64,000 nucleotides of DNA, taken from a virus. Positions 21,398 through 34,184 of this stretch are shown piece by piece. The position numbers and the translations under genes are program-made. The notes beneath the pieces are model-generated. The model was not told the origin of the DNA, ran no database searches, and saw nothing but the letters and a program-made list of their open reading frames with translations. Where the stretch lies: positions 62,001 to 126,000 of IMG/VR virus record IMGVR_UViG_3300043539_000897, one strand, 5' to 3'. The stretch's first letter is position 1. Each line of letters starts with the position of its first letter.

Positions 21398-22075
21398 ATG
21401 GATTTAAAAGAATTTTCAGACGGTCTTGAATTAGCGAGCATGGGCTTTGCTAACGGCAAGGCACCCGGTTATCCGTTCACCGAAAAAGAGAAATGGAAGA
21501 TGGTTGATAAGGCAGCAGATGCTTACGGAAAGTTTCTAGATGCATTAGGTTGTGATTGGAAGAATGATCCTAACTCTTCTGATACTCCTCGCAGGGTAGC
21601 AAAAGCATACGTATTCGATTTATGGAAAGGACGTTACGATATGATGGATAACGTTACTGCATTTCCTTCAGATGGATACGACGGAATGGTATTTGAAGGC
21701 AATATTCCAATTACCTCTATGTGTTCTCATCATCACCAAACAATCCAAGGCCGGGTTCATATCGGTTACATTCCTTCTCCAGAAGGTAAGGTTGTCGGTT
21801 TATCAAAGCTAAATAGGATTGTTGAATACTTCGGAAGAAGAGGAACAATCCAAGAACAATATACAGTTGCAGTCCATAACGCAGTGAATAAGATTTGTGA
21901 AGGTAATCAGGGAGTAGCTGTAATGGTCGAAGCAACCCACAATTGCGTATCTTGCAGAGGAGTAAAGCATGCAGGAGCTTCTATGAAAACTTCAAAGTTA
22001 TCAGGATGCTTCATGATGGAAGATTCAGCAAGAGCAGAGTTTTACGAATTCGTTAAAGGATATAGCTGCAAGTAA
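21398..22075 (+). CDS. folE: GTP cyclohydrolase I (preQ0 pathway)
   Basis: A 225-residue enzyme that turns GTP into dihydroneopterin triphosphate, the first step to 7-cyano-7-deazaguanine (preQ0) as well as folate. The zinc and active-site residues are visible: C109 and H112 in MCSHHHQT, and Cys in HNCVSCRGVKHAG (C183, C186). SKLNRIVEYFGRRGTIQEQ (136-154) is the family's conserved helix. Because it is followed at once by a transglycosylase and a formyltransferase and then QueF, its role here is most likely preQ0 supply. QueD, QueE and QueC are not in the window and may lie elsewhere or in the host. Confidence 0.93.
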   Translation: MDLKEFSDGLELASMGFANGKAPGYPFTEKEKWKMVDKAADAYGKFLDALGCDWKNDPNSSDTPRRVAKAYVFDLWKGRYDMMDNVTAFPSDGYDGMVFEGNIPITSMCSHHHQTIQGRVHIGYIPSPEGKVVGLSKLNRIVEYFGRRGTIQEQYTVAVHNAVNKICEGNQGVAVMVEATHNCVSCRGVKHAGASMKTSKLSGCFMMEDSARAEFYEFVKGYSCK

Positions 22076-22866
22076 TGATTAAGATAGCGCACGAATCTCC
22101 TATCGATTTATTCTCTTACGTTCAAACTAAGACTGATTACGATTACTGCTTAGTTCATTTGTTAGAGGAGAGTGAAGCCTATAAAGAAGCCTTTGTTGAA
22201 GCCTGTAAAGAACGAGAAGTTATTTTAGATAATTCAATCTTTGAATTAGGAGAGGCTTTTGATATGAAGAAGTTCTTCGAATGGAATAATAAGCTTGAGC
22301 CTACCTGGTACATCATCCCAGATGCTTTAGAGGATGCAAAGACAACAATCTTTAATGCTTACGTATGGAATCAGTTTCATAGACCAACCGCTAAGGGTAA
22401 AAGTATTGCAGTAGTTCAAGGAAAGACTTATGAGGAGATCGTGGAATGCTATCAGACTTTAGATGACAAGCTGGATGTTGATATGATTGCAATCTCTTTT
22501 GATTATTCTCTCTATGAAAAAATAGTTCCTAATCCGAACAAGCTTGTAAGCTGGATGCTAGGAAGAGTTGCTTTGCTAGGCAGATTAGAGAAGGACGGTA
22601 TTATTAATAAGCAAAAGCCTCACCACTTACTCGGTTGTGCATTACCTCAAGAAGGTCAGTTCTACAAAGGATATGATTGGATTTACTCAATGGATACTTC
22701 TAACCCAGTAGTACATGCTATTAAAGGAATTCCTTATCCTCACTCCGGGCTTAAGACAAAAGAGTCTCAGAAGCTATTTGAATTAATTAACTACCCGGCA
22801 GACCAAATCAGCAAGCATAACTTAGATTGGAATATTGACGTCTTTAAAGCATGGTGGAATGGGTAA
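22075..22866 (+). CDS. dpdA: DpdA-like DNA guanine transglycosylase
   Basis: A 263-residue TIM-barrel protein resembling tRNA-guanine transglycosylases. LDNSIFELG at 51-59 carries an Asp (D52) where TGT has its catalytic DSGG loop; IAVVQGKTYEEI at 111-122 matches the TGT QG loop; HHLLGCALPQE at 183-193 and YSMDTSNP at 204-211 carry the second Asp (D207). The zinc-binding C-terminus of tRNA TGTs is missing, as in the short phage DpdA proteins that put 7-deazaguanines into DNA. ATG overlaps the folE stop. Substrate inferred: preQ0 or preQ1 exchanged for guanine in the phage DNA. Confidence 0.8.
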   Translation: MIKIAHESPIDLFSYVQTKTDYDYCLVHLLEESEAYKEAFVEACKEREVILDNSIFELGEAFDMKKFFEWNNKLEPTWYIIPDALEDAKTTIFNAYVWNQFHRPTAKGKSIAVVQGKTYEEIVECYQTLDDKLDVDMIAISFDYSLYEKIVPNPNKLVSWMLGRVALLGRLEKDGIINKQKPHHLLGCALPQEGQFYKGYDWIYSMDTSNPVVHAIKGIPYPHSGLKTKESQKLFELINYPADQISKHNLDWNIDVFKAWWNG

Positions 22867-23404
22867 GTGGATTGCATTCTTCTCTCAGACTGGCAACGAG
22901 ATTGCTGAAGTAAGTAATCATTTAGATCGATGGCCTGATGTTATTATTACCAATGAAAGACCGGCCCGGTTAAGGAAAATAAACCAAGAGGTGCTCTCTA
23001 AAAATATTATAACATTACCGAACCAACCAACCGTAGAAGACTACCGTAGCGTCTTAGCAGAAGCAATCGGTATTGATACATACGTGATCACCTTACATGG
23101 ATGGTTAAGAGTAATACCTACAGAAGTGATTGAAGAGTATTCAACTATCTACAATGGACATCCTGGTTTGATCACTAAATACCCTGAACTGAAAGGAAAA
23201 GATCCTCAGATGAAAGCCTGGAATCTAGATTTGAGTAGTTCCGGCTGTGTAATTCATCAAGTAACAGCAGGAGTGGATGATGGTCCGGTAGTTAGATCTC
23301 AGCAGATAAGCATCAGGAACCTTACAATGGATGAAATGTTTCAGAAGCTGCATAACATCTCAGTCGATATGTGGGTAAACTTTCTTAAAAGACATTGGCT
23401 TTAA
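22859..23404 (+). CDS. DpdN-like formyltransferase (putative preQ1-DNA formylation)
   Basis: Start at 22859, in an ATGGGTAA overlap with the transglycosylase gene; upstream in-frame Met codons lie inside that gene. The 181-residue protein has the formyl-THF transferase core of PurN/Fmt: NGHPGLITKYPELKG near 99-113 (catalytic Asn and His) and SGCVIHQVTAGVDDGPVV near 128-145 (catalytic Asp). PurN itself would be about 210 residues and GAR-specific. Its coupling to a DpdA-like gene instead fits DpdN, the enzyme predicted to formylate the aminomethyl group of preQ1 in DNA. PurN-like function in nucleotide synthesis is the alternative. Confidence 0.75.
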   Translation: MGKWIAFFSQTGNEIAEVSNHLDRWPDVIITNERPARLRKINQEVLSKNIITLPNQPTVEDYRSVLAEAIGIDTYVITLHGWLRVIPTEVIEEYSTIYNGHPGLITKYPELKGKDPQMKAWNLDLSSSGCVIHQVTAGVDDGPVVRSQQISIRNLTMDEMFQKLHNISVDMWVNFLKRHWL

Positions 23405-23428
23405 TCAAATTAACTTCGTATATTAATA
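23395..23428 (+). promoter_or_regulatory. candidate promoter
   Basis: TTG at 23395-23397, 21 bases, then TATATTAATAC, ATG at 23432. The TTCGTATATTAA core matches the sigma-gene promoter at 25332. Confidence 0.5.
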
Positions 23429-23431
23429 CTA

Positions 23432-23968
23432 ATGAGAATATCATTTACAGGAGCTCAATCAACAGGTAAGACTACTCTACTAGAAGCAATTAAGCAGAAC
23501 GAGGAGTTCAGGTACAAATACGAATTCATCGACGAGATTACCCGCCGGATGGTTAAGAAGGGTTTGAAGATAAACGAAGCAGGAGGTAATACTACCCAGC
23601 TTCTAATTATGAATGAGCATATTAAGAATACTCTGTATACTGATGCTATTATGGATAGATGTGTCATCGACGGAGTAGTTTATACTCATTGGTTATACCA
23701 GCAAGGTAGTGTTGAGAAGTGGGTATGGGAATACTCTATGAACGTATTCAATCATTACAAGGATCGCTATGATTATATCTTCTATCTAAAGCCTGAATTC
23801 GATATCGTAGACGATGGAACCAGGAGCACTAATACTCAATTCAGAGATGATATAGTAGACTTATTTGAACGATACATTAAGCATATAAAAGTTCCTGTAG
23901 TATACCTAACAGGATCAGTAGAAGAAAGATTAGAAAAATTTTATACAACAATAAAGAATCATGGATAA
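23432..23968 (+). CDS. P-loop kinase-like ATPase (AAA_28/NadR-like)
   Basis: A 178-residue protein. The Walker A motif GAQSTGKTT is at residues 7-15; EFIDEITRRM and MDRCVIDGVVYTHWL resemble the NadR/AAA_28 phosphate-acceptor loops and Walker B. RSTNTQFRDDIVDLF has a possible lid Arg. The family includes nucleoside and nicotinamide riboside kinases. Set between the formyltransferase and QueF, it could phosphorylate a modified nucleoside or support nucleotide supply. ATG of queF lies inside its end. Confidence 0.7.
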   Translation: MRISFTGAQSTGKTTLLEAIKQNEEFRYKYEFIDEITRRMVKKGLKINEAGGNTTQLLIMNEHIKNTLYTDAIMDRCVIDGVVYTHWLYQQGSVEKWVWEYSMNVFNHYKDRYDYIFYLKPEFDIVDDGTRSTNTQFRDDIVDLFERYIKHIKVPVVYLTGSVEERLEKFYTTIKNHG

Positions 23969-24884
23969 TAATCAAAATACAGTAATTGAAATTGCCGGCA
24001 AACACCTTGGTAAGGTAGGCGGTGAGGGTTACAAGTCAACGTATGCTCCTGAGCTTCTCGTTGCAGTACCTCGCTACTACAACCGAGAGAGTTACAGCAT
24101 TAAAGAAGGTGACCTACCCTTTGTAGGCGGTGATGTTTGGAATGCTTATGAAGTATCAGCAATCACAGAGAATGGACGTCCGGTAAACGGAATGATGAAG
24201 ATCTACTGTCCGGCAGATAGTCCTGCTCACGTAGAGTCTAAGTCAATCAAGCTTTACTTGAACTCCTTTAACATGACCCGTTTGGGTTCTACAGCACACG
24301 AATGTGTTAACTTAGTTGAGCAGATGGTCACTAAAGATCTATCTAAACTATTACAGACAGAAGTTGAAGTTAAGTTCTTTACGAACGAGTTTACTCCTGA
24401 GGTAGAGTTTGGAACAGATTACATACACCTTGACCAGGCAGTTAATTTAGACGAAGAAACTTTCGATACATTCCATTCAGATGCTAGTCAGTTGCAATCA
24501 ATGGAAGTAGCTCCTAATGAGGTAGCAGTTACGACTAAGATAACTTCAAACCTTTTGAGAAGTAACTGTAGGGTAACCAACCAACCAGACTGGGGTGATG
24601 TTTATATCGAGATTGAGACTACCGGAACAAATGCTCCTGATTTCAAATCGTTAGCAAAGTACATCGTATCTCATAGAGAGGTGTCTCATTTCCACGAAGA
24701 GATTTGTGAGATGATGTTTATGCATTTAACAGAAGCTTATCAACCTTCTCGTTTGATGGTAGCTTGTTTGTATACCCGTAGAGGAGGATTGGATATTAAT
24801 CCTATCAGAGCAACTCATACAGATATGATCCCAACAATGTTCACAGATGTAAATTACAGAAACAAAAAAACACTTAGACAATAA
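23961..24884 (+). CDS. queF: preQ0 reductase QueF (long form)
   Basis: A 307-residue NADPH-dependent nitrile reductase that converts preQ0 to preQ1. It is the long, two-domain type (E. coli QueF 282 residues): VESKSIKLYLNSFN at 91-104 in the first T-fold, and SNCRVTNQPDWGDVYI at 201-216 with the catalytic Cys C203 and Asp D210 in the second. HFHEE (243-247) and ACLYTRRGGLDINPIR (near 268-283) bind substrate. With FolE, DpdA-like and the formyltransferase this gives a chain from GTP to a formylated preQ1 base in DNA. Strong call. Confidence 0.94.
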   Translation: MDNNQNTVIEIAGKHLGKVGGEGYKSTYAPELLVAVPRYYNRESYSIKEGDLPFVGGDVWNAYEVSAITENGRPVNGMMKIYCPADSPAHVESKSIKLYLNSFNMTRLGSTAHECVNLVEQMVTKDLSKLLQTEVEVKFFTNEFTPEVEFGTDYIHLDQAVNLDEETFDTFHSDASQLQSMEVAPNEVAVTTKITSNLLRSNCRVTNQPDWGDVYIEIETTGTNAPDFKSLAKYIVSHREVSHFHEEICEMMFMHLTEAYQPSRLMVACLYTRRGGLDINPIRATHTDMIPTMFTDVNYRNKKTLRQ

Positions 24885-25366: not shown

Positions 25367-25903
25367 ATGGAACAGGAACAGGTAGATACGGTTAAGCTAG
25401 CTCAAGAACTTAAAGCAGGTTCAGAGAGTGCTAAAGCACTTCTCTATACTAGGTATAAGGCATACTTTTCAAAACTAGCATACAAGTATGTCAATAATGT
25501 AGATGATACAGATGATGTAGTCTGTGATAGCTTTGTAAGAATCTTTAGGTATATTGGACAACTAAAGGATGATAATTACTTAGTAGCATGGTGTGGTAGA
25601 GTGGTAATAACCACAGCACTTAATCATATAAAGAAGAGAAAGTATGAGCAATATCAGAAAGATGTAACCGTAGTAAATCCAGGAAGATGTAATGATACTC
25701 ATTCACCTATGGACTTACAGGTGGTTATGAAATGTATAGATAATTTAGCACCGGGATATAAAAGAGTGATTGAAATGTTCTGTATTGAAGGACTATCTGG
25801 ACCAGAGATAGCAAAGGAATTAAATGTAGGGCATGTAACTGTCCGATCACAATTGTATAAAGCAAGAAAGGTATTAAAGAAAGCTATGAGACATGAATAT
25901 TGA
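25367..25903 (+). CDS. ECF-type RNA polymerase sigma factor
   Basis: A 178-residue sigma-70 family protein with only regions 2 and 4. Region 2 is near residues 22-80: LLYTRYKAYFSKLAYKYV, then DDTDDVVCDSFVRIFR (core-binding) and the VAWCGRVVITTALNHIKKR promoter-opening helix. Region 4 is at the end: MFCIEGLSGPEIAKELN followed by VGHVTVRSQLYKARKVLKKA, a helix-turn-helix for the -35. No anti-sigma gene is visible. It may switch the phage or host polymerase to a gene set with a different promoter. The AACCGTA array starts 50 bases downstream. Confidence 0.9.
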   Translation: MEQEQVDTVKLAQELKAGSESAKALLYTRYKAYFSKLAYKYVNNVDDTDDVVCDSFVRIFRYIGQLKDDNYLVAWCGRVVITTALNHIKKRKYEQYQKDVTVVNPGRCNDTHSPMDLQVVMKCIDNLAPGYKRVIEMFCIEGLSGPEIAKELNVGHVTVRSQLYKARKVLKKAMRHEY

Positions 25904-26126: not shown

Positions 26127-26339
26127 GAGTATACTATAGATAAGTATAGACGTATGGTAAGACTATAAGACAATGAGAAAACATAATATAAAGGGTAAGG
26201 GTGATATGGGAAGTGTGTAATGAAAAGTAATGTGTGTTAACTAGTAGTGGGTATAACATGGTACTATATAAAAGAATGGTAATGGTGTGTAGAAAATAGA
26301 CAAGGGAAGAGTGGAGAGTATTTAGGAGAGTTTACCGGC

Positions 26340-26570
26340 ATGTGTACCGCTCCGGTCGATTTCGCAAGACTCGCCGGTCGATCGACTCGAGGTACCGCCC
26401 CGGGCATGGGGGGAGACCTGCAGGAACAGTGGGGGGTAAGGGGAGACCCGCCGCAGGCGGGACATGGGGGGGGGGAGGTCTGGGAAAAGAAACCGCTGGG
26501 GAAGACTTGGGGATGTGGTTCTAGGGGGAGTGGTAAGGTACCACTGAAAGTACCACTTATTCCAGGGCCC
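26340..26570. other. GC-rich, G-run and palindrome island
   Basis: In a genome of about one third G+C this segment is dominated by G runs: GGGGGG at 26408 and 26431, GGGG at 26440, ten G at 26466, GGG at 26482. A strong hairpin (CCCGCC GCA GGCGGG) lies at 26447-26461. Palindromes: CGATCG 26379, CTCGAG 26386, GGTACC 26391 and 26537, CCCGGG 26399, CCTGCAGG 26417, GGGCCC 26565. Open frames on both strands here look like shadows of composition. Confidence 0.75.
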
Positions 26571-26573
26571 AAA

Positions 26574-26643
26574 CTACGTCTGATTTCTTCAACCCCTTTG
26601 GAGCCGCCCTTCGTACTATCTTCCGACATCCTAAAGATACGAA
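26574..26643 (-). ncRNA. leader or small RNA, copy A (leftward)
   Basis: Downstream of a leftward promoter, the first 60-70 bases match a second copy at 28091-28161: ATGTCGGAA, AGTACGAAGGGCGG and TGAAGAAATCAGACGTAG are shared on the minus strand. Between the last two blocks each copy has a different small hairpin (here CTCC AAA GGGG). A frame opens at the shared ATG and runs 121 codons in copy A but ends after 13 in copy B, so the conserved part is more likely RNA than protein. Confidence 0.45.
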
Positions 26644-26661
26644 CATTAGTTCAGGGGACAA
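26630..26661 (-). promoter_or_regulatory. leftward promoter, copy A
   Basis: On the minus strand: TTG (26661-26659), 19 bases, then TATCTTTAGG (26639-26630). The TTCGTATCTTTAGG core is identical to the rightward promoters, but it faces the G-rich island and the AACCGTA array. Confidence 0.65.
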
Positions 26662-26841
26662 ACACTTTTTTTTATTTTTACCATATTTATTAATGTAGTC
26701 TACAGAGACATTGACGTTACATAAGGAAACGAGCTTAGGGCACATAATAAAATAACAATCAAAAGCTTCTAGAACCTACAGAAACACTATAGTGGCCACA
26801 AAAAATGCTTTGGATGGTCGTTATTTTTTTTTGTCTAAAGG

Positions 26842-26874
26842 TTGCTTCTTCGGAGGCTTATTCGTATATTTAGG
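26842..26874 (+). promoter_or_regulatory. promoter with hairpin in the spacer
   Basis: TTG at 26842-26844, 20 bases, TATATTTAGG; ATG at 26897. The spacer contains the hairpin GCTTC TTCG GAGGC (26844-26857), so it may also stop readthrough from the left. Confidence 0.75.
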
Positions 26875-26896
26875 TATCAATAAGATAAAAACAGTT

Positions 26897-27685
26897 ATGA
26901 AAAACACATTTTTAACCACAGAGCAGATCGCCATTATGGCCCCTGCAGTTCTCGAGACTGGTGTCTCTTCAAAAGTATCTTCAAAGTATGTTCACGTACC
27001 CACTATCGATTTAATCGGTGATATGGCTACGATGGGATGGAATGTTGTTGATGCAAAGCAAAGAAAGACTCGCAAAGATGAAGCGGGTGGAAGCTTTAGT
27101 AAGCACATGGTTGTATTCAGAAACGACGATGTAGTTATTAAGAGTGAGGATGGAGAGGTTGTTTACCCTCAGATCCTATTGAGTAACTCTCACGATGGTC
27201 TTTCTTCATTCCAGTTCAGAGCCGGTTTGTTCAGATTGATTTGTTCTAATGGGTTGGTTATTGCAACCAAAGATTTCGGTTCTATGACCATCCGTCATAA
27301 GGGCTATTCTTTTGAGGAGTTAAAGAAGACGGTTATGGGGTTGGTTGAAACCTTACCGGTGACTGTTGAGACCTTGAATAAATTTAGAGAGGTTACTTTG
27401 ACTGAGGATCAGAAGGTTGAGATGGCTTTAGCTGCTTTGGGTATTAGATTTGGAGAAGGTGGAGCTGAGGTTACGGCTGAGGAAATTCTTAAGCCTGTTC
27501 GTTCTGAGGATGAAGGGAATGATCTTTGGACAGTCTTTAATGTGATTCAAGAGAAGATGGTTCGTGGTGGTTTTAAATACAAAGCCTCTACCGGCCGAAA
27601 TAAGACGGCTAGGTCTATCAAGAACTTCAATAGAGATATTGAATTGAATGAGAAGCTTTACGAGCTTGCAGAATCGTTCATTTAA
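26897..27685 (+). CDS. DUF932-family protein
   Basis: Start set at 26897, where AAAACAGTTATG follows the promoter leader; a longer frame to 26792 runs through the promoter. The 262-residue protein shows the DUF932 pattern: a mid-protein SNSHDGLSSFQFRAGLF followed by RLICSNGLV, and the preceding VYPQILL strand. DUF932 proteins are common in phages and plasmids of many bacteria; their function is unknown. First gene of the small-gene region and the only one with a recognisable large family there. Confidence 0.8.
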   Translation: MKNTFLTTEQIAIMAPAVLETGVSSKVSSKYVHVPTIDLIGDMATMGWNVVDAKQRKTRKDEAGGSFSKHMVVFRNDDVVIKSEDGEVVYPQILLSNSHDGLSSFQFRAGLFRLICSNGLVIATKDFGSMTIRHKGYSFEELKKTVMGLVETLPVTVETLNKFREVTLTEDQKVEMALAALGIRFGEGGAEVTAEEILKPVRSEDEGNDLWTVFNVIQEKMVRGGFKYKASTGRNKTARSIKNFNRDIELNEKLYELAESFI

Positions 27686-27689
27686 AGAG

Positions 27690-27715
27690 TGGGCCTTCGG
27701 GCCCATTTTTTTTTT
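27690..27715 (+). terminator. terminator after the DUF932 gene
   Basis: TGGGCC, TTCG loop, GGCCCA (27690-27705), then ten or more T. Textbook intrinsic terminator with a UUCG tetraloop. Confidence 0.92.
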
Positions 27716-27723
27716 TATTTTAG

Positions 27724-27756
27724 TTGGTCCCTTGGAGGCTTATTCGTATATTTAGG
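27724..27756 (+). promoter_or_regulatory. promoter
   Basis: TTG at 27724, 20 bases (containing CTTGGAGGCTTATTCG, close to the 26842 spacer), TATATTTAGG; ATG at 27786 behind an A-rich leader ending AAAGGTTATG. Confidence 0.8.
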
Positions 27757-27785
27757 TATAGGAAAAAAGAAATAAAAAAAAGGTT

Positions 27786-28013
27786 ATGATAATCACAGAA
27801 AAAAACAACATCGAACTCTTCAGATTGAAGACAATCATCACAGGTCTTGAATTTGAAATCAAAACAGGCATGAAGATGTCTAGATTCTCAGCTAGGGATG
27901 CAGCTAAGCAGACATTGGGATTAAGTTCTAAATCCAGAGTCCAAAGCATCGAGCTCTACTTTGCAATGATTGAGCTTCACAATGAGAAGGTAAAAGAACT
28001 CACAGAGCAATAG
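27786..28013 (+). CDS. hypothetical early protein
   Basis: A 75-residue, mostly helical protein (MIITEKNNIELFRLKTIITG, FSARDAAKQTLGLSSKSRV). Own promoter and terminator, so a single-gene unit. No known domain. Confidence 0.65.
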   Translation: MIITEKNNIELFRLKTIITGLEFEIKTGMKMSRFSARDAAKQTLGLSSKSRVQSIELYFAMIELHNEKVKELTEQ

Positions 28014-28038
28014 TTTGGTTTAAGTTATATGAGAAGCT

Positions 28039-28064
28039 GGCCCCGAAAGGGGTCGGTTTTTTTT
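28039..28064 (+). terminator. terminator
   Basis: GGCCCC, GAAA loop, GGGGTC (28039-28054, one G-T pair), then GG and eight T. GNRA-type tetraloop. Confidence 0.85.
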
Positions 28065-28090
28065 CATACCATTTTTTTTTAAAGAACAGC

Positions 28091-28161
28091 CTACGTCTGA
28101 TTTCTTCAGGTTTTTACCCCGCCCTTCGTACTCCATCTTTCCGACATCCTAAAGATACGAA
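28091..28161 (-). ncRNA. leader or small RNA, copy B (leftward)
   Basis: Second copy of the sequence at 26574-26643, 71 bases, with three blocks identical to copy A (18, 13 and 23 bases). The variable middle forms a different small hairpin (GGT AAAA ACC on the minus strand), which preserves structure without sequence. The ATG at the presumed start opens only 13 codons here. The region to the left ends at the rightward terminator at 28039-28064. Confidence 0.45.
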
Positions 28162-28180
28162 AAACAATTTTAATTTCCAA
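28148..28180 (-). promoter_or_regulatory. leftward promoter, copy B
   Basis: On the minus strand TTG (28180-28178), exactly 20 bases, TATCTTTAGG (28157-28148). It is 20 bases from the rightward promoter at 28201, forming a divergent pair. Confidence 0.75.
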
Positions 28181-28200
28181 CAAAAGAATAAATAAATTAG

Positions 28201-28233
28201 TTGTTTGTTTAGAGGCTTATTCGTATCTTTAGG
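28201..28233 (+). promoter_or_regulatory. promoter for a leaderless gene
   Basis: TTG at 28201, 20 bases, TATCTTTAGG, then T and ATG at 28235. The start codon falls on the expected transcription start. Confidence 0.82.
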
Positions 28234-28234
28234 T

Positions 28235-28414
28235 ATGGGAAATAAAGAACTACAAGCTATTGCAGACGACACAAGCAGGACTCCAAAGGAGAGAGACTTG
28301 GCTAGAATCTTAGCATTATCAACAATGATGTTGACTAGCGGTAACTACGAAGGAGCTTCTAACATTCTTAACATTTATGTTGAGGAAAAAAATAAAATAA
28401 AAGTTGGTTATTAA
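28235..28414 (+). CDS. 59-residue hypothetical protein (leaderless)
   Basis: Start at the ATG right after the -7 box; an in-frame ATG at 28205 lies inside the promoter. Predicted helical (KERDLARILALSTMMLTSGN). The end overlaps the next promoter's -33. Function unknown. Confidence 0.6.
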   Translation: MGNKELQAIADDTSRTPKERDLARILALSTMMLTSGNYEGASNILNIYVEEKNKIKVGY

Positions 28415-28436
28415 AGAGAAGATTCGTATCTTTAGG
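28404..28436 (+). promoter_or_regulatory. promoter
   Basis: TTG at 28404 lies within the last codons of the preceding gene; 20 bases; TATCTTTAGG; ATG at 28462 behind AAAAAAAGGTTATG. Confidence 0.78.
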
Positions 28437-28461
28437 TATAGAAAAGAAATAAAAAAAGGTT

Positions 28462-28812
28462 ATGATAAACAATATTAAAAACGCAATCGACAGGGTTTCC
28501 AACAGCTACCCTTCCATCTTTACTAAAGATGATGTAATTAAGTTGTTAGCAGATTTATCTGCAGAAATGCAGGATGAAGCTCCAAAGCAAGTAATTGATA
28601 AGGATGTTCTCCTAACTACTTTCCGACAAATGCTTTCAGAGAAAGATTGGGATGATGTTGCTGATAAGGATCAATTTGAGTTAAGTATTGGTTATGATAA
28701 TAAAATTGAGATTGATAGAATTGCGATTGATGAGGATTTCTTAATTGATTCAGCTGTTGATTCATTGGAAGCTCTTTGGGATGTTTTAGAGGAGGCAGGA
28801 AACGAAGATTAA
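28462..28812 (+). CDS. hypothetical acidic protein
   Basis: A 116-residue, strongly acidic protein (SEKDWDDVADKDQFELSIG, DSAVDSLEALWDVLEEAGN). Own promoter, terminator downstream. The acidity could suit a DNA mimic or inhibitor, but there is no proof. Confidence 0.62.
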   Translation: MINNIKNAIDRVSNSYPSIFTKDDVIKLLADLSAEMQDEAPKQVIDKDVLLTTFRQMLSEKDWDDVADKDQFELSIGYDNKIEIDRIAIDEDFLIDSAVDSLEALWDVLEEAGNED

Positions 28813-28822
28813 AAAAAATTGG

Positions 28823-28850
28823 GGGAGGGTTGGTTCCCTCCCTTTTTTTT
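28823..28850 (+). terminator. terminator fused with the next promoter
   Basis: GGGAGGG (28823-28829), loop TTGGTT, CCCTCCC (28836-28842), eight T. The TTG of the next promoter's -33 lies in the loop and the T run fills its spacer. Confidence 0.9.
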
Positions 28851-28862
28851 CGTATATTTAGG
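28830..28862 (+). promoter_or_regulatory. promoter overlapping a terminator, leaderless
   Basis: TTG at 28830-28832, 20 bases, TATATTTAGG, T, ATG at 28864. The core is the same as at 29230. Confidence 0.88.
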
Positions 28863-28863
28863 T

Positions 28864-29211
28864 ATGGGAGAAAATAAAAAAACACTTGTGGAGTACAACG
28901 AACATGTACTAAGCATTCACAAATTAGTTAAAGAGACTTACGGTGTTGAATGCCACGCTATGGCTAACGCTATTACTACTAAACTAATTTCACCATCTTT
29001 ATTGATGAGACACATGCTGACAGGGGAAGTAGTTCCAGATCCAGAGTATATTATGTTCTCTGTAGCTAAGGACCTTAATCAATGTCAGATCAAGGAAGAC
29101 ACCTTTGGGGATTATGTTTCGGGTCTTGCTGACCCTGATAAGATACACGGTATTTTAGATGAAGCGATGGAGTTAACAGACAATGCCGGGTTCGGCGATG
29201 TTGAAGCTTAA
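28864..29211 (+). CDS. hypothetical protein (leaderless)
   Basis: Start at 28864 directly after the -7 box; the longer frame from 28819 is the terminator read as protein. A 115-residue, acidic, helical protein (YNEHVLSIHKLVKETYG, GILDEAMELTDNAGFG). Bounded by two almost identical terminator-promoter cassettes. Confidence 0.65.
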   Translation: MGENKKTLVEYNEHVLSIHKLVKETYGVECHAMANAITTKLISPSLLMRHMLTGEVVPDPEYIMFSVAKDLNQCQIKEDTFGDYVSGLADPDKIHGILDEAMELTDNAGFGDVEA

Positions 29212-29222
29212 AAAAAGATTAG

Positions 29223-29250
29223 GGGAGGGTTGGTTCCCTCCCTTTTTTTT
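29223..29250 (+). terminator. terminator fused with the next promoter
   Basis: Same as 28823-28850: GGGAGGG, TTGGTT loop, CCCTCCC, eight T. The cassette is repeated exactly 400 bases downstream of the first. Confidence 0.9.
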
Positions 29251-29262
29251 CGTATATTTAGG
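29230..29262 (+). promoter_or_regulatory. promoter overlapping a terminator, leaderless
   Basis: TTG in the terminator loop, 20 bases, TATATTTAGG, T, ATG at 29264. Confidence 0.88.
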
Positions 29263-29263
29263 T

Positions 29264-29572
29264 ATGGTTAAAAAGACAAATAAATCCACCGATGAGACTT
29301 CCTTCCACGGCATTACGATTAAAACGACCTTGGGTAGGTTGAGAGCAGCATTCGGAGATCCGCAATGGGAGAGTAATGACGGGGAGGATAAAACCAACAT
29401 CGATTACAATTTGGAAACTCCCGACGGAGATGTATTCACGGTTTACGATTGGAAAAATTATCGCCCCATTGGTGAGGATGAGGTTTTGGATTTTCACATC
29501 GGAGCAGATTCGAGCCGAATTGCTTTCCAGGCAAAAAATGAAATGCATAAAATGGGACTTTTTGTTGGTTAA
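29264..29572 (+). CDS. hypothetical protein (leaderless), beta-rich
   Basis: A 102-residue protein. The N-terminus (FHGITIKTTLGRLRAAFGDP) and DGEDKTNIDYNLETPDGDVF and YDWKNYRP look like a small alpha/beta fold with conserved aromatic residues. No recognised family. The start is fixed by the promoter. Confidence 0.65.
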   Translation: MVKKTNKSTDETSFHGITIKTTLGRLRAAFGDPQWESNDGEDKTNIDYNLETPDGDVFTVYDWKNYRPIGEDEVLDFHIGADSSRIAFQAKNEMHKMGLFVG

Positions 29573-29597
29573 TTGAAATATAATTCTTATCTTTAGG
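29565..29597 (+). promoter_or_regulatory. promoter, leaderless
   Basis: TTG at 29565 overlaps the end of the preceding gene; 20 bases; TATCTTTAGG; T; ATG at 29599. Confidence 0.82.
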
Positions 29598-29598
29598 T

Positions 29599-29874
29599 AT
29601 GGAAGTTAATAAGGTTATAGAATTGCTAGGAGATAAGATCTTCACAGTTTCCTTCACAAAGAAGGATGGTTCAATCAGATTGATGAATGCTCGTAGGGGT
29701 GTTACTAAAGGAGTCAAAGGAGTTGGAATGTCTTACAATCCCTCTGAGAAAGGATTGGTCGTTGTCTTTGATATGCAGAAAGAAGCATTCAGGATGATTA
29801 ATGCTAATACTATTCACGAGATTAAAGCAGACAAAAATATTTACGTTTTTAAGGATGGAGAGTTGGTTCTTTGA
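29599..29874 (+). CDS. SH3-like beta-barrel protein
   Basis: A 91-residue protein. KIFTVSFTKKDGSIRLMNAR, then RGVTKGVKGVGMSYNPSEKG and LVVVFDMQKEAFRMINANTI match the small beta-barrel annotated in many Bacteroidetes phages as SH3-like. The same domain occurs as the core of the protein at 63328-63903 (residues 49-125), so the phage has two versions. Function unknown; SH3-like barrels often bind peptides or nucleic acids. Confidence 0.7.
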   Translation: MEVNKVIELLGDKIFTVSFTKKDGSIRLMNARRGVTKGVKGVGMSYNPSEKGLVVVFDMQKEAFRMINANTIHEIKADKNIYVFKDGELVL

Positions 29875-29895
29875 ACCAGCTTTCGTATCTTTAGG
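29863..29895 (+). promoter_or_regulatory. promoter inside a gene end
   Basis: TTG at 29863 is in the coding end of the SH3-like gene; 20 bases; TATCTTTAGG; ATG at 29911. A hairpin TGGTTC TTT GAACCA covers the stop codon and the -33. Confidence 0.78.
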
Positions 29896-29910
29896 TATAG
29901 AAAAAAGGTT

Positions 29911-30129
29911 ATGATAAAGCTAGTCGTTGGTTACAGGCCCATTACAGATGAAGGAAGGAAGCTTGAGATTGCTTCTTCAGATAAATTGAAACTTGAATTG
30001 ACAAGCTCCTATAAGAGGGAAACTCTTTATCAGGATTTCGATTGTAACATTTATACTTACGCTCAGCTTATGGGGACTATGGTCCGGTTCATGGATGGGT
30101 CTACTATGGAGCTAGAGATTGCGAAATGA
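29911..30129 (+). CDS. hypothetical protein
   Basis: A 72-residue protein with alternating strands (MIKLVVGYRPITDEG, LKLELTSSYKRE). ATG follows AAAAAAGGTT. Its stop overlaps the next start (ATGA), so two genes share this message. Confidence 0.6.
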   Translation: MIKLVVGYRPITDEGRKLEIASSDKLKLELTSSYKRETLYQDFDCNIYTYAQLMGTMVRFMDGSTMELEIAK

Positions 30130-30308
30130 ACTACAGCAGGATAAGTAGGTCTAGATGGAAGCATCTGAAGGAGGTGGCTGACATGTATGAGGTAGTCGGC
30201 TACCAGAATGGTAAGAACAATATCTACTGTGAGGTCAAAGTCTGGAATAGAGACAAGAATGACAATATCAGATACAATCACGTGGTTATTAATGAGAGTT
30301 GGTATTGA
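30126..30308 (+). CDS. 60-residue hypothetical protein
   Basis: ATGA overlap with the gene before. Basic N-terminus (MNYSRISRSRWKHLKEVADM), then a strand pair (NNIYCEVKVWNRDKND). Unknown. Confidence 0.55.
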   Translation: MNYSRISRSRWKHLKEVADMYEVVGYQNGKNNIYCEVKVWNRDKNDNIRYNHVVINESWY

Positions 30309-30317
30309 AAAATAAAG

Positions 30318-30350
30318 TTGTTTAATAAAAAAATAATTCTTATCTTTAGG
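30318..30350 (+). promoter_or_regulatory. promoter, leaderless
   Basis: TTG at 30318, 20 bases, TATCTTTAGG, T, ATG at 30352. Confidence 0.82.
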
Positions 30351-30351
30351 T

Positions 30352-30528
30352 ATGAAAATAAAGGACTTGATATTAGAATTACAGAAACAGAATCCAGAAT
30401 CAGAAATTGAGTTTGTTGGTCTGGTTGAGTATGGGTTTGGAGAGACAATAGAATTCGTTTCCGAGGAGTGTCACATCCAGGAAGAAGACGGGTTTGTTCA
30501 ATTAATCATTCAAGGAGAAGAAAATTAA
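30352..30528 (+). CDS. 58-residue acidic hypothetical protein (leaderless)
   Basis: Below a 60-residue cutoff but well supported: the ATG sits 1 base after TATCTTTAGG. The protein starts MKIKDLILELQKQNPESEIE and ends with a VQLIIQGEEN strand; acidic. The next gene begins 5 bases downstream with AAAGGTTATG. Confidence 0.65.
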   Translation: MKIKDLILELQKQNPESEIEFVGLVEYGFGETIEFVSEECHIQEEDGFVQLIIQGEEN

Positions 30529-30533
30529 AGGTT

Positions 30534-30824
30534 ATGAAAATAGATACAAAATTTAAGTATGCTGCTATTACTCCAGAAGGAGAAATCTTGAACATGTTTA
30601 CCAACAAGGATATGTTCTCTAAGAAAGAAACAGCAGAGAACAATCTTAAGAAATGGATTGAAGAAGCTAAATTTCATGAAAAGAATGCAAAAGCATATGG
30701 TGAATCTTACCCAGAGTATCTAGAGTTTTGTTTAAAGAGTGTGGAACATTACAGAAATCAAGCAGAGATGTTTGAAGCTTGCCGAGTAGCTAAAATTAAA
30801 ATTACTTTGGAAGTAGTTGGTTAA
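30534..30824 (+). CDS. hypothetical helical protein
   Basis: Start at 30534 (AAAGGTTATG); a longer frame to 30468 is inside the previous gene. A 96-residue protein: beta start (FKYAAITPEGEILNMF) and a long helix (ETAENNLKKWIEEAKFHEKN). Function unknown. Confidence 0.62.
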   Translation: MKIDTKFKYAAITPEGEILNMFTNKDMFSKKETAENNLKKWIEEAKFHEKNAKAYGESYPEYLEFCLKSVEHYRNQAEMFEACRVAKIKITLEVVG

Positions 30825-30849
30825 TTGAATTATATTTCTTATATTTAGG
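30817..30849 (+). promoter_or_regulatory. promoter
   Basis: TTG at 30817 in the last codons of the preceding gene; 20 bases; TATATTTAGG; ATG at 30868 behind AAAATAAAGGTTATG. Confidence 0.8.
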
Positions 30850-30867
30850 TATATTAAAATAAAGGTT

Positions 30868-31119
30868 ATGAAGATATTAGAAAATCACGAAGAACAAATC
30901 ACTGTTCGAACTTACTACATCATGATGGATAATACACGTCATGTCTGGTATAAAGAATTTATGAACCCAGAAGGAACGAAAGTTCTTGATGTTGATATTG
31001 TTGATGAGGATAATTACTCAATCATTCTGGAGTTGGATGATGATGATGTTCAAAGAATTGAAAGCATGGTTGATGCATTCAACGAGCATGGAGAGTTTGC
31101 TTATCAAGATAAATTCTAA
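30868..31119 (+). CDS. hypothetical acidic protein
   Basis: An 83-residue protein: antiparallel strands (EEQITVRTYYIMMDNTRHVW) then a very acidic stretch (VDIVDEDNYSIILELDDDD). No recognised domain. Confidence 0.6.
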   Translation: MKILENHEEQITVRTYYIMMDNTRHVWYKEFMNPEGTKVLDVDIVDEDNYSIILELDDDDVQRIESMVDAFNEHGEFAYQDKF

Positions 31120-31124
31120 GAGCT

Positions 31125-31220
31125 ATGAAAGCATGTCAACATAAAACCACCTACGTTGCAGTAAGACACGTATCAGGGTTAATATTACGCAAATGCCGGG
31201 ATTGCGGTAAAGCGGTTTAA
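31125..31220 (+). CDS. 31-residue zinc-knuckle-like protein
   Basis: Starts 5 bases after the previous stop: MKACQHKTTYVAVRHVSG, ending CRDCGKAV. One CxH and one CxxC pair give four potential zinc ligands. Very small but in line with similar phage mini-proteins. Confidence 0.5.
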   Translation: MKACQHKTTYVAVRHVSGLILRKCRDCGKAV

Positions 31221-31228
31221 AAAAAAAG

Positions 31229-31261
31229 TTGTTTATTTAAAAAATAATTCATATATTTAGG
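31229..31261 (+). promoter_or_regulatory. promoter
   Basis: TTG at 31229, 20 bases, TATATTTAGG, ATG at 31280 behind AAATAAAGGTTATG. Confidence 0.82.
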
Positions 31262-31279
31262 TATAGATAAATAAAGGTT

Positions 31280-31819
31280 ATGGAAAACAAAAAATTATTC
31301 TCAGACACAATTACTGACGAGCAGTACAGAAAGCTTACTCGCCCTACTCTCGATTATGAACGTAAACCTAATCATCCGAATGATGTTCGGTCATCGATTA
31401 ACTTCAATGAATTGCATGAAAGCGTTCGAGAGATTGTTTCTAGTCTTCCGATAGTCGAATTCCCGAACTCATTCTTCGATTACTTTTTGGATGGAGATCA
31501 GCAGTTCTACTTGGTTACTTATAAAGAGAAAATCTTCTTGGTTGATACTCAGGGTTATGATTATGCCCGTTATGTAATTCAGCTAAAGGATTTGGTTATT
31601 CTTGAGAAAGCTGATACTATGCAGATGAAGAGTCACCCTGGAATGGTTGAAGAGATTATTAGCATGCTTAAGCATATGGATGTTGACGGGGAGACTATGG
31701 AGTATATCATTCGGAGTGTAGGGATGGAAGAGCAGATGCTTCGTCAATTATTCTTGACCGGGGATGATTACTTGTTAACTAATTTAGTTGCAGGAAGGGA
31801 ATATGGATTCCATATTTAA
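31280..31819 (+). CDS. hypothetical protein
   Basis: A 179-residue protein, one of the larger early products. Middle part is beta (DGDQQFYLVTYKEKIFLVDT), C-terminus helical (HPGMVEEIISMLKHMDVDG). I recognise no family. The next gene overlaps its end by 17 bases. Confidence 0.62.
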   Translation: MENKKLFSDTITDEQYRKLTRPTLDYERKPNHPNDVRSSINFNELHESVREIVSSLPIVEFPNSFFDYFLDGDQQFYLVTYKEKIFLVDTQGYDYARYVIQLKDLVILEKADTMQMKSHPGMVEEIISMLKHMDVDGETMEYIIRSVGMEEQMLRQLFLTGDDYLLTNLVAGREYGFHI

Positions 31820-32021
31820 CTACTACGATTATATAAACCACTGCGGGAATAGAATGTTTGCAATAGCCGGTGTGAAAGCCATGCCGGCTAGATACTGCAG
31901 CATCCTCTTCACAGGCTCTTTTAAAGAGTGCATGGAGAGGCTTGACCCTCCCGGCTTAGAAGGCTCGGTAGAGGATTTGCAGGCAAAGGTTGCTATCCCG
32001 ATAAATATTTCTTATCTTTAG
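31803..32021 (+). CDS. hypothetical protein
   Basis: Start at 31803, because CAGGAAGGGAAT, a purine-rich ribosome site, precedes that ATG; an ATG 15 bases earlier is also in frame. 72 residues (HCGNRMFAIAGVKAMPARYC). The stop lies within the next promoter. Confidence 0.5.
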   Translation: MDSIFNYYDYINHCGNRMFAIAGVKAMPARYCSILFTGSFKECMERLDPPGLEGSVEDLQAKVAIPINISYL

Positions 32022-32022
32022 A
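31990..32022 (+). promoter_or_regulatory. promoter, leaderless
   Basis: TTG at 31990 inside the preceding gene, 20 bases, TATCTTTAGA, T, ATG at 32024. Confidence 0.75.
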
Positions 32023-32023
32023 T

Positions 32024-32263
32024 ATGATAGAAGAGTTATTAGAGAAGAGAGAAGATCTGTTTGAGATTGCTGCCTTGCTATATGGTGACGCTTTTGTTAC
32101 ATGCAAAGACTTTTGGGGGTCTCCGACTGAGAGACACTTGCAGGAGCTATATGAAGAGCTCTACAACCTGGGGCATAAGTTCCCAGAGCCTTCAGAGGAG
32201 CAGAAAGATGCAGCGATAATTTTAGCAAAAAAGTTAGGATTAGGGTTGCCTCCAGAAGATTAA
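32024..32263 (+). CDS. hypothetical acidic helical protein (leaderless)
   Basis: A 79-residue acidic protein of helices (MIEELLEKREDLFEIAALLY, QLYEEL-like region, EEQKDAAIILAKKLGLG). The start is set by the promoter. Function unknown. Confidence 0.6.
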   Translation: MIEELLEKREDLFEIAALLYGDAFVTCKDFWGSPTERHLQELYEELYNLGHKFPEPSEEQKDAAIILAKKLGLGLPPED

Positions 32264-32278
32264 TTTCATATCTTTAGG
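32246..32278 (+). promoter_or_regulatory. promoter
   Basis: TTG at 32246 in the last codons of the preceding gene; 20 bases; TATCTTTAGG; ATG at 32307 behind AAATAAAAAAAAGGTTATG. Confidence 0.8.
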
Positions 32279-32306
32279 TATAGAAAAAAGAAATAAAAAA
32301 AAGGTT

Positions 32307-33089
32307 ATGACAAAAAATGAAAGTTTAGAAATCGTTAAAGCAGCTCTTATTGAGAAAAGAGATGTAATCGAAGTTACTTGTTCGGCTCTTGAGAAGGAAG
32401 CTAAGGAAGAAAAGAAGGCAATCTTTGAGAAACTATTTGCAGATGAATTAGTATCTTATGCAGATGTTGCTGTTGAGATGGGGTATAGTGGGATGTATTT
32501 TAAGATTGGGCATAAGGAGATTGGGAGCATTACTGAGAGGAGCTATTGGAGAGATGAAGATAAGGATAGGAAGTATTACTTTAATACTTACGCTACTATA
32601 TGTGAGGATGAATTTGAATTCAGGAGATTAATTTTCAATGGTAAGGTTGCTGAAAGGATGCTTAATGATATGGATAGTATTAAAGAAGCGTTTGCAACTC
32701 CTTATAGTAAGAAGGTAGAATTAGCTGCTCTGGCTTCCGAATATGAAATTCTTTCATCAGAAATTAAGCAGAAGGATTATCAGATGCAAGAAGCTAGAAA
32801 GCAAGATATTATCGATAAATTGAACGGAGAGGGAATGGAGTGGAATTCAGATCTATGCTTTGAGTTTAATCGCCAATGGACTTCTTATCTAGTAAAGAAA
32901 TTAAAAATCGTTAAAGCAACTAAATCTGGTAAAACTGTTGATTTAGAAGTTACATACGTTCAATATGATTGGAGCTATGAAGAGGATGGCAGCGGTAAGA
33001 GAGTGGAGAAAGAAGACCGAATTGTTACGCATGAGGGAATCAAAATGGAGTACGTGATGGGTAATTTTAGAAAGACCATCTACAAATAA
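32307..33089 (+). CDS. hypothetical coiled-coil early protein
   Basis: A 260-residue protein. Residues 5-45 form an acidic-basic helix (IEVTCSALEKEAKEEKKAIF), and residues 140-175 a second coiled coil (LASEYEILSSEIKQKDYQMQ), with mixed alpha/beta between and an aromatic C-terminus (VQYDWSYEEDGSGKRVEKED). Largest unknown of the early block. Followed by a terminator. Confidence 0.62.
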   Translation: MTKNESLEIVKAALIEKRDVIEVTCSALEKEAKEEKKAIFEKLFADELVSYADVAVEMGYSGMYFKIGHKEIGSITERSYWRDEDKDRKYYFNTYATICEDEFEFRRLIFNGKVAERMLNDMDSIKEAFATPYSKKVELAALASEYEILSSEIKQKDYQMQEARKQDIIDKLNGEGMEWNSDLCFEFNRQWTSYLVKKLKIVKATKSGKTVDLEVTYVQYDWSYEEDGSGKRVEKEDRIVTHEGIKMEYVMGNFRKTIYK

Positions 33090-33120
33090 GAAACCTTTAT
33101 TTTCTTTTGATAAAAAGTTT

Positions 33121-33148
33121 GGGGGCCAGTAGGTCCCCTGCTTTTGTT
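33121..33148 (+). terminator. terminator overlapping the next promoter
   Basis: GGGGGCC (33121-33127), AGTA loop, GGTCCCC (33132-33138, one G-T pair), then TGCTTTTGTTTT. Confidence 0.75.
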
Positions 33149-33162
33149 TTCGTATCTTTAGG
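33130..33162 (+). promoter_or_regulatory. promoter with degenerate -33
   Basis: TAG where TTG is expected (33130), 20 bases, TATCTTTAGG; ATG at 33185 behind AAAAAAGGTTATG. Confidence 0.68.
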
Positions 33163-33184
33163 TATCAAAGAAATAAAAAAGGTT

Positions 33185-33436
33185 ATGACAAGAGACAGAA
33201 TGATTTTAGCACTCCGAGAAAAAGGAGTTCATGTAGTAGGAACAACAGAAGAGTTCGGCATTGGTGGAGAAGGTATTTGGATATCAGGAGAGTCTCATCC
33301 AAGCCTGTTCGACTACTACTCTGAGAGATGGATGGATACCTTCGGAGTACAGCCTAAATTGAACGACTTCGTTGAAGAGAACGGATGGTACTTTGAGTGG
33401 TACGATGCAGGCACAATGATGGTTTGGCTTAGCTAA
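33185..33436 (+). CDS. hypothetical protein
   Basis: Start at AAAAGGTTATG (33185). An 83-residue protein: N-terminal helix (DRMILALREKGVHVVG), acidic middle, aromatic end (EENGWYFEWYDAGTMMVWLS). Unknown. Confidence 0.6.
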   Translation: MTRDRMILALREKGVHVVGTTEEFGIGGEGIWISGESHPSLFDYYSERWMDTFGVQPKLNDFVEENGWYFEWYDAGTMMVWLS

Positions 33437-33452
33437 ATAATAAAAAAAAGAG

Positions 33453-33485
33453 TTGCCTCTTCGGAGGCTTCTTCTTATCTTTAGG
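33453..33485 (+). promoter_or_regulatory. promoter with UUCG hairpin in the spacer
   Basis: TTG at 33453, then GCCTC TTCG GAGGC (33455-33468), then TATCTTTAGG (33476); ATG at 33516. The hairpin may terminate readthrough. Confidence 0.78.
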
Positions 33486-33515
33486 TATAATAAAAAAGAA
33501 ACAAAAAAATAGGTT

Positions 33516-33800
33516 ATGAACATTCAAACATTATCTTACAAAGAACTAGTAGCAGAAGCTACTACCAAAGGTCTCCAGAAGGCTAGTCAAACCAAGAAGG
33601 AAGACTTGATCAAATTCTTAACCGGGCTAACAGCTCAGAAGAGAGAGAAGAAGCCGGTTGATCCTCGCATCGTTGAGATGGCAGATGGGTCTTTGACCAC
33701 CAGAGAGATTGCTAAGGAGCTTGGAGTGAAGTACTCAGATGTTTATTTTGCTTTGAAGAAGGCAGGTCTAACAGCAAAGCCAGTAAAGAAAAAGAATTAA
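33516..33800 (+). CDS. DNA-binding protein with SAP-like and helix-turn-helix parts
   Basis: A 94-residue protein. Residues 5-33 (LSYKELVAEATTKGLQKASQ and TKKEDLIKFL) read as a SAP/Rho-N-like helix-extended-helix. Residues 50-84 (RIVEMADGSLTTREIAKELG and VKYSDVYFALKKAG) form a helix-turn-helix. Basic tail. It may be a transcription or chromatin-like factor of early infection; assigned by pattern. Confidence 0.65.
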   Translation: MNIQTLSYKELVAEATTKGLQKASQTKKEDLIKFLTGLTAQKREKKPVDPRIVEMADGSLTTREIAKELGVKYSDVYFALKKAGLTAKPVKKKN

Positions 33801-33810
33801 AAAAGATTAG

Positions 33811-33833
33811 GGGAGGGTTGGAAACTCCCTCCC
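33811..33833 (+). terminator. terminator fused with the next promoter
   Basis: GGGAGGG (33811-33817), loop TTGGAAACT, CCCTCCC (33827-33833), short T tail TTATT. Third copy of the fused design, with a shorter T run. Confidence 0.75.
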
Positions 33834-33850
33834 TTATTCGTATCTTTAGG
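33818..33850 (+). promoter_or_regulatory. promoter overlapping a terminator, leaderless
   Basis: TTG in the hairpin loop (33818-33820), 20 bases, TATCTTTAGG, T, ATG at 33852. Confidence 0.85.
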
Positions 33851-33851
33851 T

Positions 33852-34115
33852 ATGGAGAAAAAAATAAACAACCAAACTACTTACTTTAAAAAATCTCAAT
33901 TACTTTATTCCCTCTACGGTCGCCAAGACGACTTTTTAGACACATTTAAAAACGCCCCTTCTATTACCCATAACGACGAAACCTTAATACCAACATCCTA
34001 TGTATTAAACTTATTCGAAGACAATATCATATATCAAAATGGACGCACCGACAACGGTCAGTCTTTATCCGACATACTCATTAACGACCCCACCTTACAC
34101 CAAATAACTCTTTAA
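33852..34115 (+). CDS. hypothetical protein (leaderless)
   Basis: An 87-residue protein. Codon use shifts to C-ending codons and away from the G-rich start of its neighbours (GACGAC, CCCACC), which is why the minus strand is free of such signal and suggests separate origin. Sequence features (TTYFKKSQLLYSLYGRQDDF) give no domain. Confidence 0.58.
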   Translation: MEKKINNQTTYFKKSQLLYSLYGRQDDFLDTFKNAPSITHNDETLIPTSYVLNLFEDNIIYQNGRTDNGQSLSDILINDPTLHQITL

Positions 34116-34128
34116 AAAAAAGTTTGAG

Positions 34129-34153
34129 GAAAGGTTGGATTAACCAGCCTTTC
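34129..34153 (+). terminator. hairpin overlapping the next promoter
   Basis: GAAAGG (34129-34134), 13-base loop with TTG, CCTTTC (34148-34153), then TTCTTAT. Weaker than the GC-rich copies but the same arrangement. Confidence 0.5.
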
Positions 34154-34167
34154 TTCTTATCTTTAGG
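34135..34167 (+). promoter_or_regulatory. promoter overlapping a hairpin
   Basis: TTG at 34135 in the loop, 20 bases, TATCTTTAGG; ATG at 34185 behind AAAAGGTTATG. Confidence 0.8.
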
Positions 34168-34184
34168 TATCAAAAGAAAAGGTT

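Follow-up and report, generated by a model that had tools for sequence, protein, structure and literature searches.

The phage represented by IMG/VR virus record IMGVR_UViG_3300043539_000897 probably synthesizes 7-deazaguanine with its own enzymes and incorporates it into its DNA. The genes concerned form a module of five tightly packed consecutive open reading frames (ORFs), all on the plus strand, at positions 21398–24884 of the window, by which we mean the whole stretch of 64,000 nucleotides analysed (bases 62001–126000 of the 166,276-base record, whose completeness is unstated). They encode FolE, a DpdA-type DNA guanine transglycosylase, a PurN-like formyltransferase, a kinase and QueF, and DNA containing 7-(formylamino)methyl-7-deazaguanine is the likely product. 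The gene set is already known in kind from Flavobacterium phage immuto_2-6A (here called immuto); what goes beyond that is a possible link to a kinase and to a guanine phosphoribosyltransferase (PRT). The record represents a further phage that combines the entire GTP-to-preQ1 route with a DpdA and a formyltransferase. If the kinase and PRT links hold, they bear on two questions, the means by which some phages achieve such extensive guanine replacement and the fate of the guanine released at each exchange, and make both directly testable.

The module and its pathway

The first gene (21398–22075) encodes FolE, GTP cyclohydrolase I, which would catalyse the first step from GTP. It matches Pfam GTP_cyclohydroI (PF01227; E 4.2e-44) and PHROG 2197 (E 1.8e-61), and its translation contains the CSHHH and CVSC motifs pointed out in the initial annotation. 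The DpdA-type gene (22075–22866) overlaps it by one base and is followed by the genes for the formyltransferase (22859–23404), whose predicted activity is formylation of preQ1 at its aminomethyl group, and the kinase (23432–23968). The latter overlaps the gene for QueF (23961–24884), the two-domain reductase forming preQ1 from preQ0, by eight bases. Pfam and PHROG families as well as homology agree with the initial assignment of four of the five genes to one 7-deazaguanine route. The kinase, then left unassigned, resembles nucleoside and nucleotide kinases in the fold of its predicted model.

The initial annotation had expected QueC, QueD and QueE to be either encoded outside the window or supplied by the host. 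The first alternative holds: all three genes are found in the same record upstream of the window, at 47888–48706 (QueC), 49301–49765 (QueD) and 50403–51194 (QueE; record coordinates), where tblastn with the immuto proteins gave 63, 73 and 68% identity respectively. The same kind of search located ThyA and DNA polymerase A in this upstream part of the record as well. Pfam supports the upstream genes, with the radical-SAM match of QueE just under the cut-off; the NCBIfam matches are below the curated cut-offs. Since QueC, QueD and QueE are in the same record, the phage itself, judged by sequence, encodes every step from GTP to preQ1.

In the proposed pathway FolE, QueD, QueE and QueC would convert GTP to preQ0, and QueF would reduce preQ0 to preQ1. 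The PurN-like enzyme would move a formyl group from 10-formyl-tetrahydrofolate onto the amine of preQ1, before or after insertion of the base, either order being possible. DpdA, with its tRNA-guanine transglycosylase (TGT) fold, would replace guanine in DNA by the 7-deaza base, so that the end product would be 2'-deoxy-7-(formylamino)methyl-7-deazaguanine. Each exchange would free a guanine, which an HGPRT-like enzyme of the phage could convert to GMP and thus return to FolE. The altered major groove should block restriction and hide the phage DNA from the DNA-cutting defences of the host, probably a member of the Bacteroidota.

Precedents for such a pathway exist. Passages of PMC6884629 report that 7-deazaguanines occur in the DNA of phages encoding DpdA and the preQ0 pathway, that dPreQ1 occurs in the DNA of the QueF/QueF-L-encoding viruses Dp-1 and HVTV-1, and that CAjan loses the modified base when dpdA is deleted; protection from restriction is the claim made in the title of that paper.

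The transglycosylase, the formyltransferase and QueF

The product of 22075–22866 matches no Pfam family above its cut-off and belongs to PHROG 19058 (function unknown; E 7.7e-47). Relatives occur in 24 phage records in all. An immuto protein annotated as DNA guanine transglycosylase (DpdA) shares 60% identity, relatives in Campylobacter phages 38–40% (40% for a hypothetical protein of CP220), and weaker ones are found in Bacillus, Weizmannia and Chryseobacterium phages. A model predicted from 48 aligned sequences (of 73 listed; a second alignment, A4, took 36 of 39) has a mean predicted local distance difference test (pLDDT) score of 96.8. With this model, the top 50 rows listed by Foldseek (best E 1.0e-7, 2pot) and by VIA-align 2 were all TGTs, the best VIA-align 2 superposition being that on 1iq8 (Z 17.8, root-mean-square deviation 2.9, 230 of 263 residues). 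Profile comparison with E. coli Tgt gave E 2.2e-4 and a probability of 45%; it pairs VVQGKTYEEI with IIQGSVYEDL, and D207 with the Asp of the Tgt motif FDCVMP, which we take to be the catalytic nucleophile. D52 and D207 are invariant across the 48 aligned DpdA-type sequences. Thus, fold and Tgt profile place the protein inside the TGT/DpdA superfamily, and the earlier description of it as DpdA-like is borne out. On the basis of homology and model, the second gene encodes a DpdA-type transglycosylase, for which guanine exchange in DNA is predicted.

At 263 residues the protein is shorter than E. coli Tgt (375 residues), and we presume that this short form is the subtype called DpdA3. Cui and colleagues reportedly named the DpdA3 subfamily in 2023 and are said to have found that it allows full replacement. 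Isoelectric point and net charge were considered as a means of telling DNA binding from nucleotide binding and rejected as not discriminating: isoelectric points are 5.46–6.63 in 10 of 11 proteins of the DpdA1 type (9.43 in the remaining one) and have a median of 5.45 in the DpdA type of the window (n = 122), both types being acidic.

The formyltransferase matches Formyl_trans_N (PF00551; E 1.6e-12) and is 56% identical to its immuto homologue. Its start is probably the ATG at 22859, not the TTG at 22835 that was chosen mechanically. A three-sequence alignment that includes E. coli PurN shows N96, H98 and D137 (residue numbers counted from 22868) as invariant; they presumably represent the catalytic Asn, His and Asp of 10-formyl-tetrahydrofolate formyltransferases. 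In place of the PurN loop SGNGSN the window protein has SQTGNE and the immuto protein SQTGSE, so that only the Ser and one Gly are kept, and the score against the PurN family of NCBIfam (TIGR00639) is 51.8 bits at a cut-off of 150.1. The loss of most of the GNGSN loop fits a substrate other than glycinamide ribonucleotide. We take the enzyme to be of the type known as DpdN; in the work of Cui and colleagues from 2023, the formylated base fdPreQ1 is said to be described and DpdN to be the predicted formyltransferase.

QueF matches QueF_N (PF14819; E 8.3e-33), QueF (PF14489; E 3.6e-18) and TIGR03138 (E 1.3e-74; 251.3 bits, below the curated cut-off of 293.45). C203 and D210, the two residues named in the initial annotation, are invariant with E. 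coli QueF in a four-sequence alignment, as are H245 and E246; we assume that these four are the active-site residues. The two-domain build is also common to both proteins.

Relatives of this DpdA type are common in viral contigs: 264 loci were confirmed in a first scan and at least 532 in a second. We analysed the best 80 of each, labelled here by L-numbers, and counted gene families with local profiles that started from genes of the window, immuto or CP220 and were then iterated. For the formyltransferase and QueF we used loci with a DpdA ORF of at least 220 residues and 5 kb on both sides, which left 39 of 66 representatives at 80% identity. The formyltransferase is present in 21 of these, 20 of which also have QueF; among the 18 representatives without it, four have QueF and 14 do not (Fisher p 4.7e-6). 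The corresponding four counts after thinning to 60% are 5, 1, 2 and 13 (p 0.0055), and at 35% QueF accompanies the formyltransferase in 2/2 loci and is found in 0/8 of the others (p 0.022), the direction being unchanged. Such tracking of QueF is expected if the formyltransferase acts on an amine, namely preQ1. It supports the earlier suggestion that this enzyme, by its predicted function, can finish the base.

Related loci and known systems

In close relatives the gene order is PRT, FolE, PRA-PH, DpdA, formyltransferase, kinase and QueF, often followed by DNA polymerase. In many remote relatives the formyltransferase, kinase and QueF genes stay near DpdA despite a changed order. One close relative differs in that two extra ORFs lie between DpdA and a shortened formyltransferase ORF of 137 residues (L020, 8841–10563); one of them, 261 residues long, is GIY-YIG-like by eye.

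The closest phage in the searched collection is immuto (NC_055915, KNV73_gp210 to gp202), in which the reductase is annotated as QueF. It has FolE, DpdA, formyltransferase, kinase and QueF in the same order as the window, with four other genes between them, and the proteins are 72, 60, 56, 36 and 63% identical, respectively. QueD and QueE are encoded close upstream of its module and QueC further upstream. Immuto differs in having a PRA-PH gene that separates FolE from DpdA, and also an XGPRT-like gene (by NCBIfam) before FolE. PRA-PH and MazG were looked for in the window phage without a match, and its own PRT, encoded near QueC, QueD and QueE, is HGPRT-like (TIGR01203; E 6.5e-37, 126.8 bits at a cut-off of 150).

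CP220 (Firehammervirus) resembles the window in that an AAA_28 kinase gene is located directly behind that of the DpdA homologue. Unlike in the window, no formyltransferase or QueF is annotated in its 8-kb flanks or matched there by the local profiles. A report cited in a passage of PMC6884629 describes heavy dADG modification in Campylobacter phages.

The DpdA1 phages (9g, CAjan) and the DpdA2 phage KVP40, whose protein KVP40.0122 is named DpdA2 in a passage of PMC8056088, share with the window the preQ0 pathway plus DpdA, and in DpdA1 phages DpdA is often encoded near DNA polymerase. They differ from it in that the formyltransferase found no match in 14 DpdA1/DpdA2 loci. Their DpdA proteins (240–459 residues) are unmatched by the profile of the window type.

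PRA-PH and PRT occur mostly in the clade to which immuto belongs, a PRT gene being found near DpdA in 3 of 27 representatives at 60%. Where PRT is present, FolE starts 25–77 bases behind it in 60 of 73 loci (not de-duplicated). In addition, three of the 12 DpdA1 loci, from phages MMDA13, Vibrio 2.117.O and Baskent_P4_1, have an XGPRT-like domain fused to the amino terminus of FolE (L187, 5095–5982; L189, 5007–5930; L195, 5108–6001). The alignment of these amino-terminal parts with the immuto protein spans almost the entire PRT (pairwise E values from 9e-14 to 9e-13); NCBIfam recognizes XGPRT in two of them (1.1e-5 and 0.0034), and in MMDA13 there is only a Pfam match (0.0096). The association of PRT with FolE may reflect recycling of the guanine that is freed by the exchange. 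Apart from this, a ParB-like gene is located near or next to DpdA1 in three loci (L191, L194 and L192, from Nadezda, Finch and phi3ST:2).

The kinase and alternative readings

Several points weigh against a DNA-modification pathway as outlined above. The modified base of the phage is a prediction from genes and models. The formyltransferase is named by family, residues and neighbourhood, and one locus, L088, has a formyltransferase without QueF within the 14 kb examined. The NCBIfam scores for QueF, PurN and HGPRT are all under the curated cut-offs. D52 of the transglycosylase, invariant as it is, falls outside the Tgt profile alignment, so that it is a putative second catalytic Asp. Finally, QueF and its amidotransferase look-alike QueF-L are hard to separate by sequence, according to a passage of PMC6884629.

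The kinase deserves separate consideration. It matches AAA_28 (PF13521; E 1.6e-19), the only Pfam family to pass its cut-off (dNK, E 4.9e-5, does not), and PHROG 2107, 'thymidylate kinase' (E 2.4e-25). Its model (pLDDT 91.8) is closest to NadR (Z 17.9), followed by deoxycytidine kinase with deoxyguanosine (Z 16.8) and human deoxyguanosine kinase (Z 16.3); thymidylate kinase (Z 15.8) comes behind these. Among members of the kinase profile, four were run against Pfam: those of the window, immuto and CP220 pass AAA_28 and that of L110 is just under the cut-off.

The kinase is a frequent neighbour of this short DpdA type. In representatives with 3.5 kb on each side (47 of 66 at 80%), a kinase of the window family is encoded within 3.5 kb of DpdA in 33/47 cases, in 14/27 at 60% and in 6/18 at 45%. 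As a control we used DpdA1 and DpdA2 loci, mainly from annotated phage records, as single-sequence scans of the viral contigs yielded only three and two loci. The kinase profile had no match in 14 such loci, and a same-strand ORF of 100–300 residues with a P-loop pattern was found within 3.5 kb in none of 13 (12 DpdA1 and one DpdA2, a small set in which L186 and L191 have less than 3.5 kb on one side). The contrast between 33/47 and 0/13 is clear (Fisher p 3.9e-6). It persists when both sides are thinned to 60% (14/27 versus 0/8 DpdA1 representatives; p 0.012) and is not significant at 45%, where few loci remain (6/18 versus 0/5; p 0.27). If MA9V-3, Youna2 and BSTP12 are included on account of their P-loop proteins, the values are 17/27 (p 0.0029) and 9/18 (p 0.12). 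An earlier comparison of the 45% loci with controls thinned only to 60% (6/18 versus 0/8, p 0.13; 9/18, p 0.023) is superseded, as the significance for 9/18 was lost once the thinning was matched.

This neighbourhood raises the alternative that the short DpdA exchanges the base not in DNA but on free deoxyguanosine or dGMP, and that the kinase phosphorylates the product toward a deoxynucleoside triphosphate for the phage DNA polymerase; in relatives, the dGMP would come from hydrolysis of dGTP by a MazG/PRA-PH pyrophosphohydrolase. Besides the counts given above and a fold nearest to NadR and the deoxynucleoside kinases, several arrangements would suit it. In loci lacking the formyltransferase the kinase adjoins DpdA (CP220, L149, L131 and L178; one ORF off in L151), and it is kept through changes of gene order (L110, L113). 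Other P-loop proteins are encoded beside DpdA in MA9V-3 and phiST (AAA_18 in both, over the cut-off; the phiST kinase was missed by the P-loop pattern and is in none of the kinase counts), and in Youna2 and BSTP12, where no Pfam family is over the cut-off; in BSTP5, 8 and 10 the P-loop neighbour is annotated as a putative thymidylate kinase. PRA-PH is found near DpdA in 17/39 representatives at 80%, immuto included, and MazG in phiST.

Nevertheless, we regard exchange at the nucleotide level as unlikely. The kinase contrast fades under strong matched thinning, 10 of the 27 loci at 60% have no counted kinase (although phiST among them does have one), and some DpdA genes abut DNA polymerase instead (L098, L102, L107, L111). 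PRA-PH belongs mostly to one clade (1/27 at 60%), and neither it nor MazG was matched in the window phage. Known enzymes of the TGT family act on polynucleotides, and insertion by DpdA was reportedly read as post-replicative by Cui and colleagues in 2023. The same low probability applies to a near-complete replacement of deoxyguanosine at the precursor level, the manner of Z-genome phages, by the short DpdA and the kinase with guanine returned by a dedicated guanine PRT, the enzyme that is fused to FolE in some DpdA1 phages. Two further indications were dropped: a kinship of the immuto PRA-PH with MazZ of Z-genome phages (phmmer against the PDB gave four weak matches, the best, E 0.048, to an unrelated molecule), and the proximity of DNA polymerase, which DpdA1 loci show too. 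In the literature searched, nothing ties a kinase or PRT to DpdA; two key papers were outside that search, and we claim no priority. A passage of PMC10653934 speculates that evolution has adapted phage deoxynucleoside monophosphate kinases to bases like preQ0 and preQ1.

It is very unlikely that QueF instead acts as an amidotransferase to yield dG+ (archaeosine), with the formyltransferase belonging to purine synthesis. The similarity of QueF to QueF-L noted in PMC6884629 and the best match of the formyltransferase, PurN, would permit this, but the two-domain architecture and active site of QueF resemble the E. coli reductase, the GNGSN loop of PurN is mostly lost, and the formyltransferase gene travels with those of QueF and DpdA. 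Least probable of all is that the genes raise preQ1 for queuosine in host tRNA while DpdA and the formyltransferase serve other roles: FolE to QueF is also the route to tRNA queuosine, and a passage of PMC6884629 considers such a role in phages for which a DpdA had not been identified, but here the set includes an enzyme with the TGT fold and close similarity to an annotated phage DpdA, and formylated preQ1 should be unusable for queuosine.

Outside the module, the window contains 17 spaced copies of TTCNTATNTTTAGGTAT at 26841–34170, mostly with GTTG upstream and immediately preceding small ORFs; the window as a whole has 19 matches, against an expectation of 0.67. A copy with one mismatch is located at 21020, before the ORF preceding FolE. 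These copies look like promoters of what we take to be the Bacteroidetes type. Sigma-70-like genes are found just behind the module (25367–25903) and at 40207–40941 (under the Pfam cut-off). The region 26264–26693 shows raised GC content, a strong skew of G over C, and overlapping, spurious-looking ORFs on both strands.

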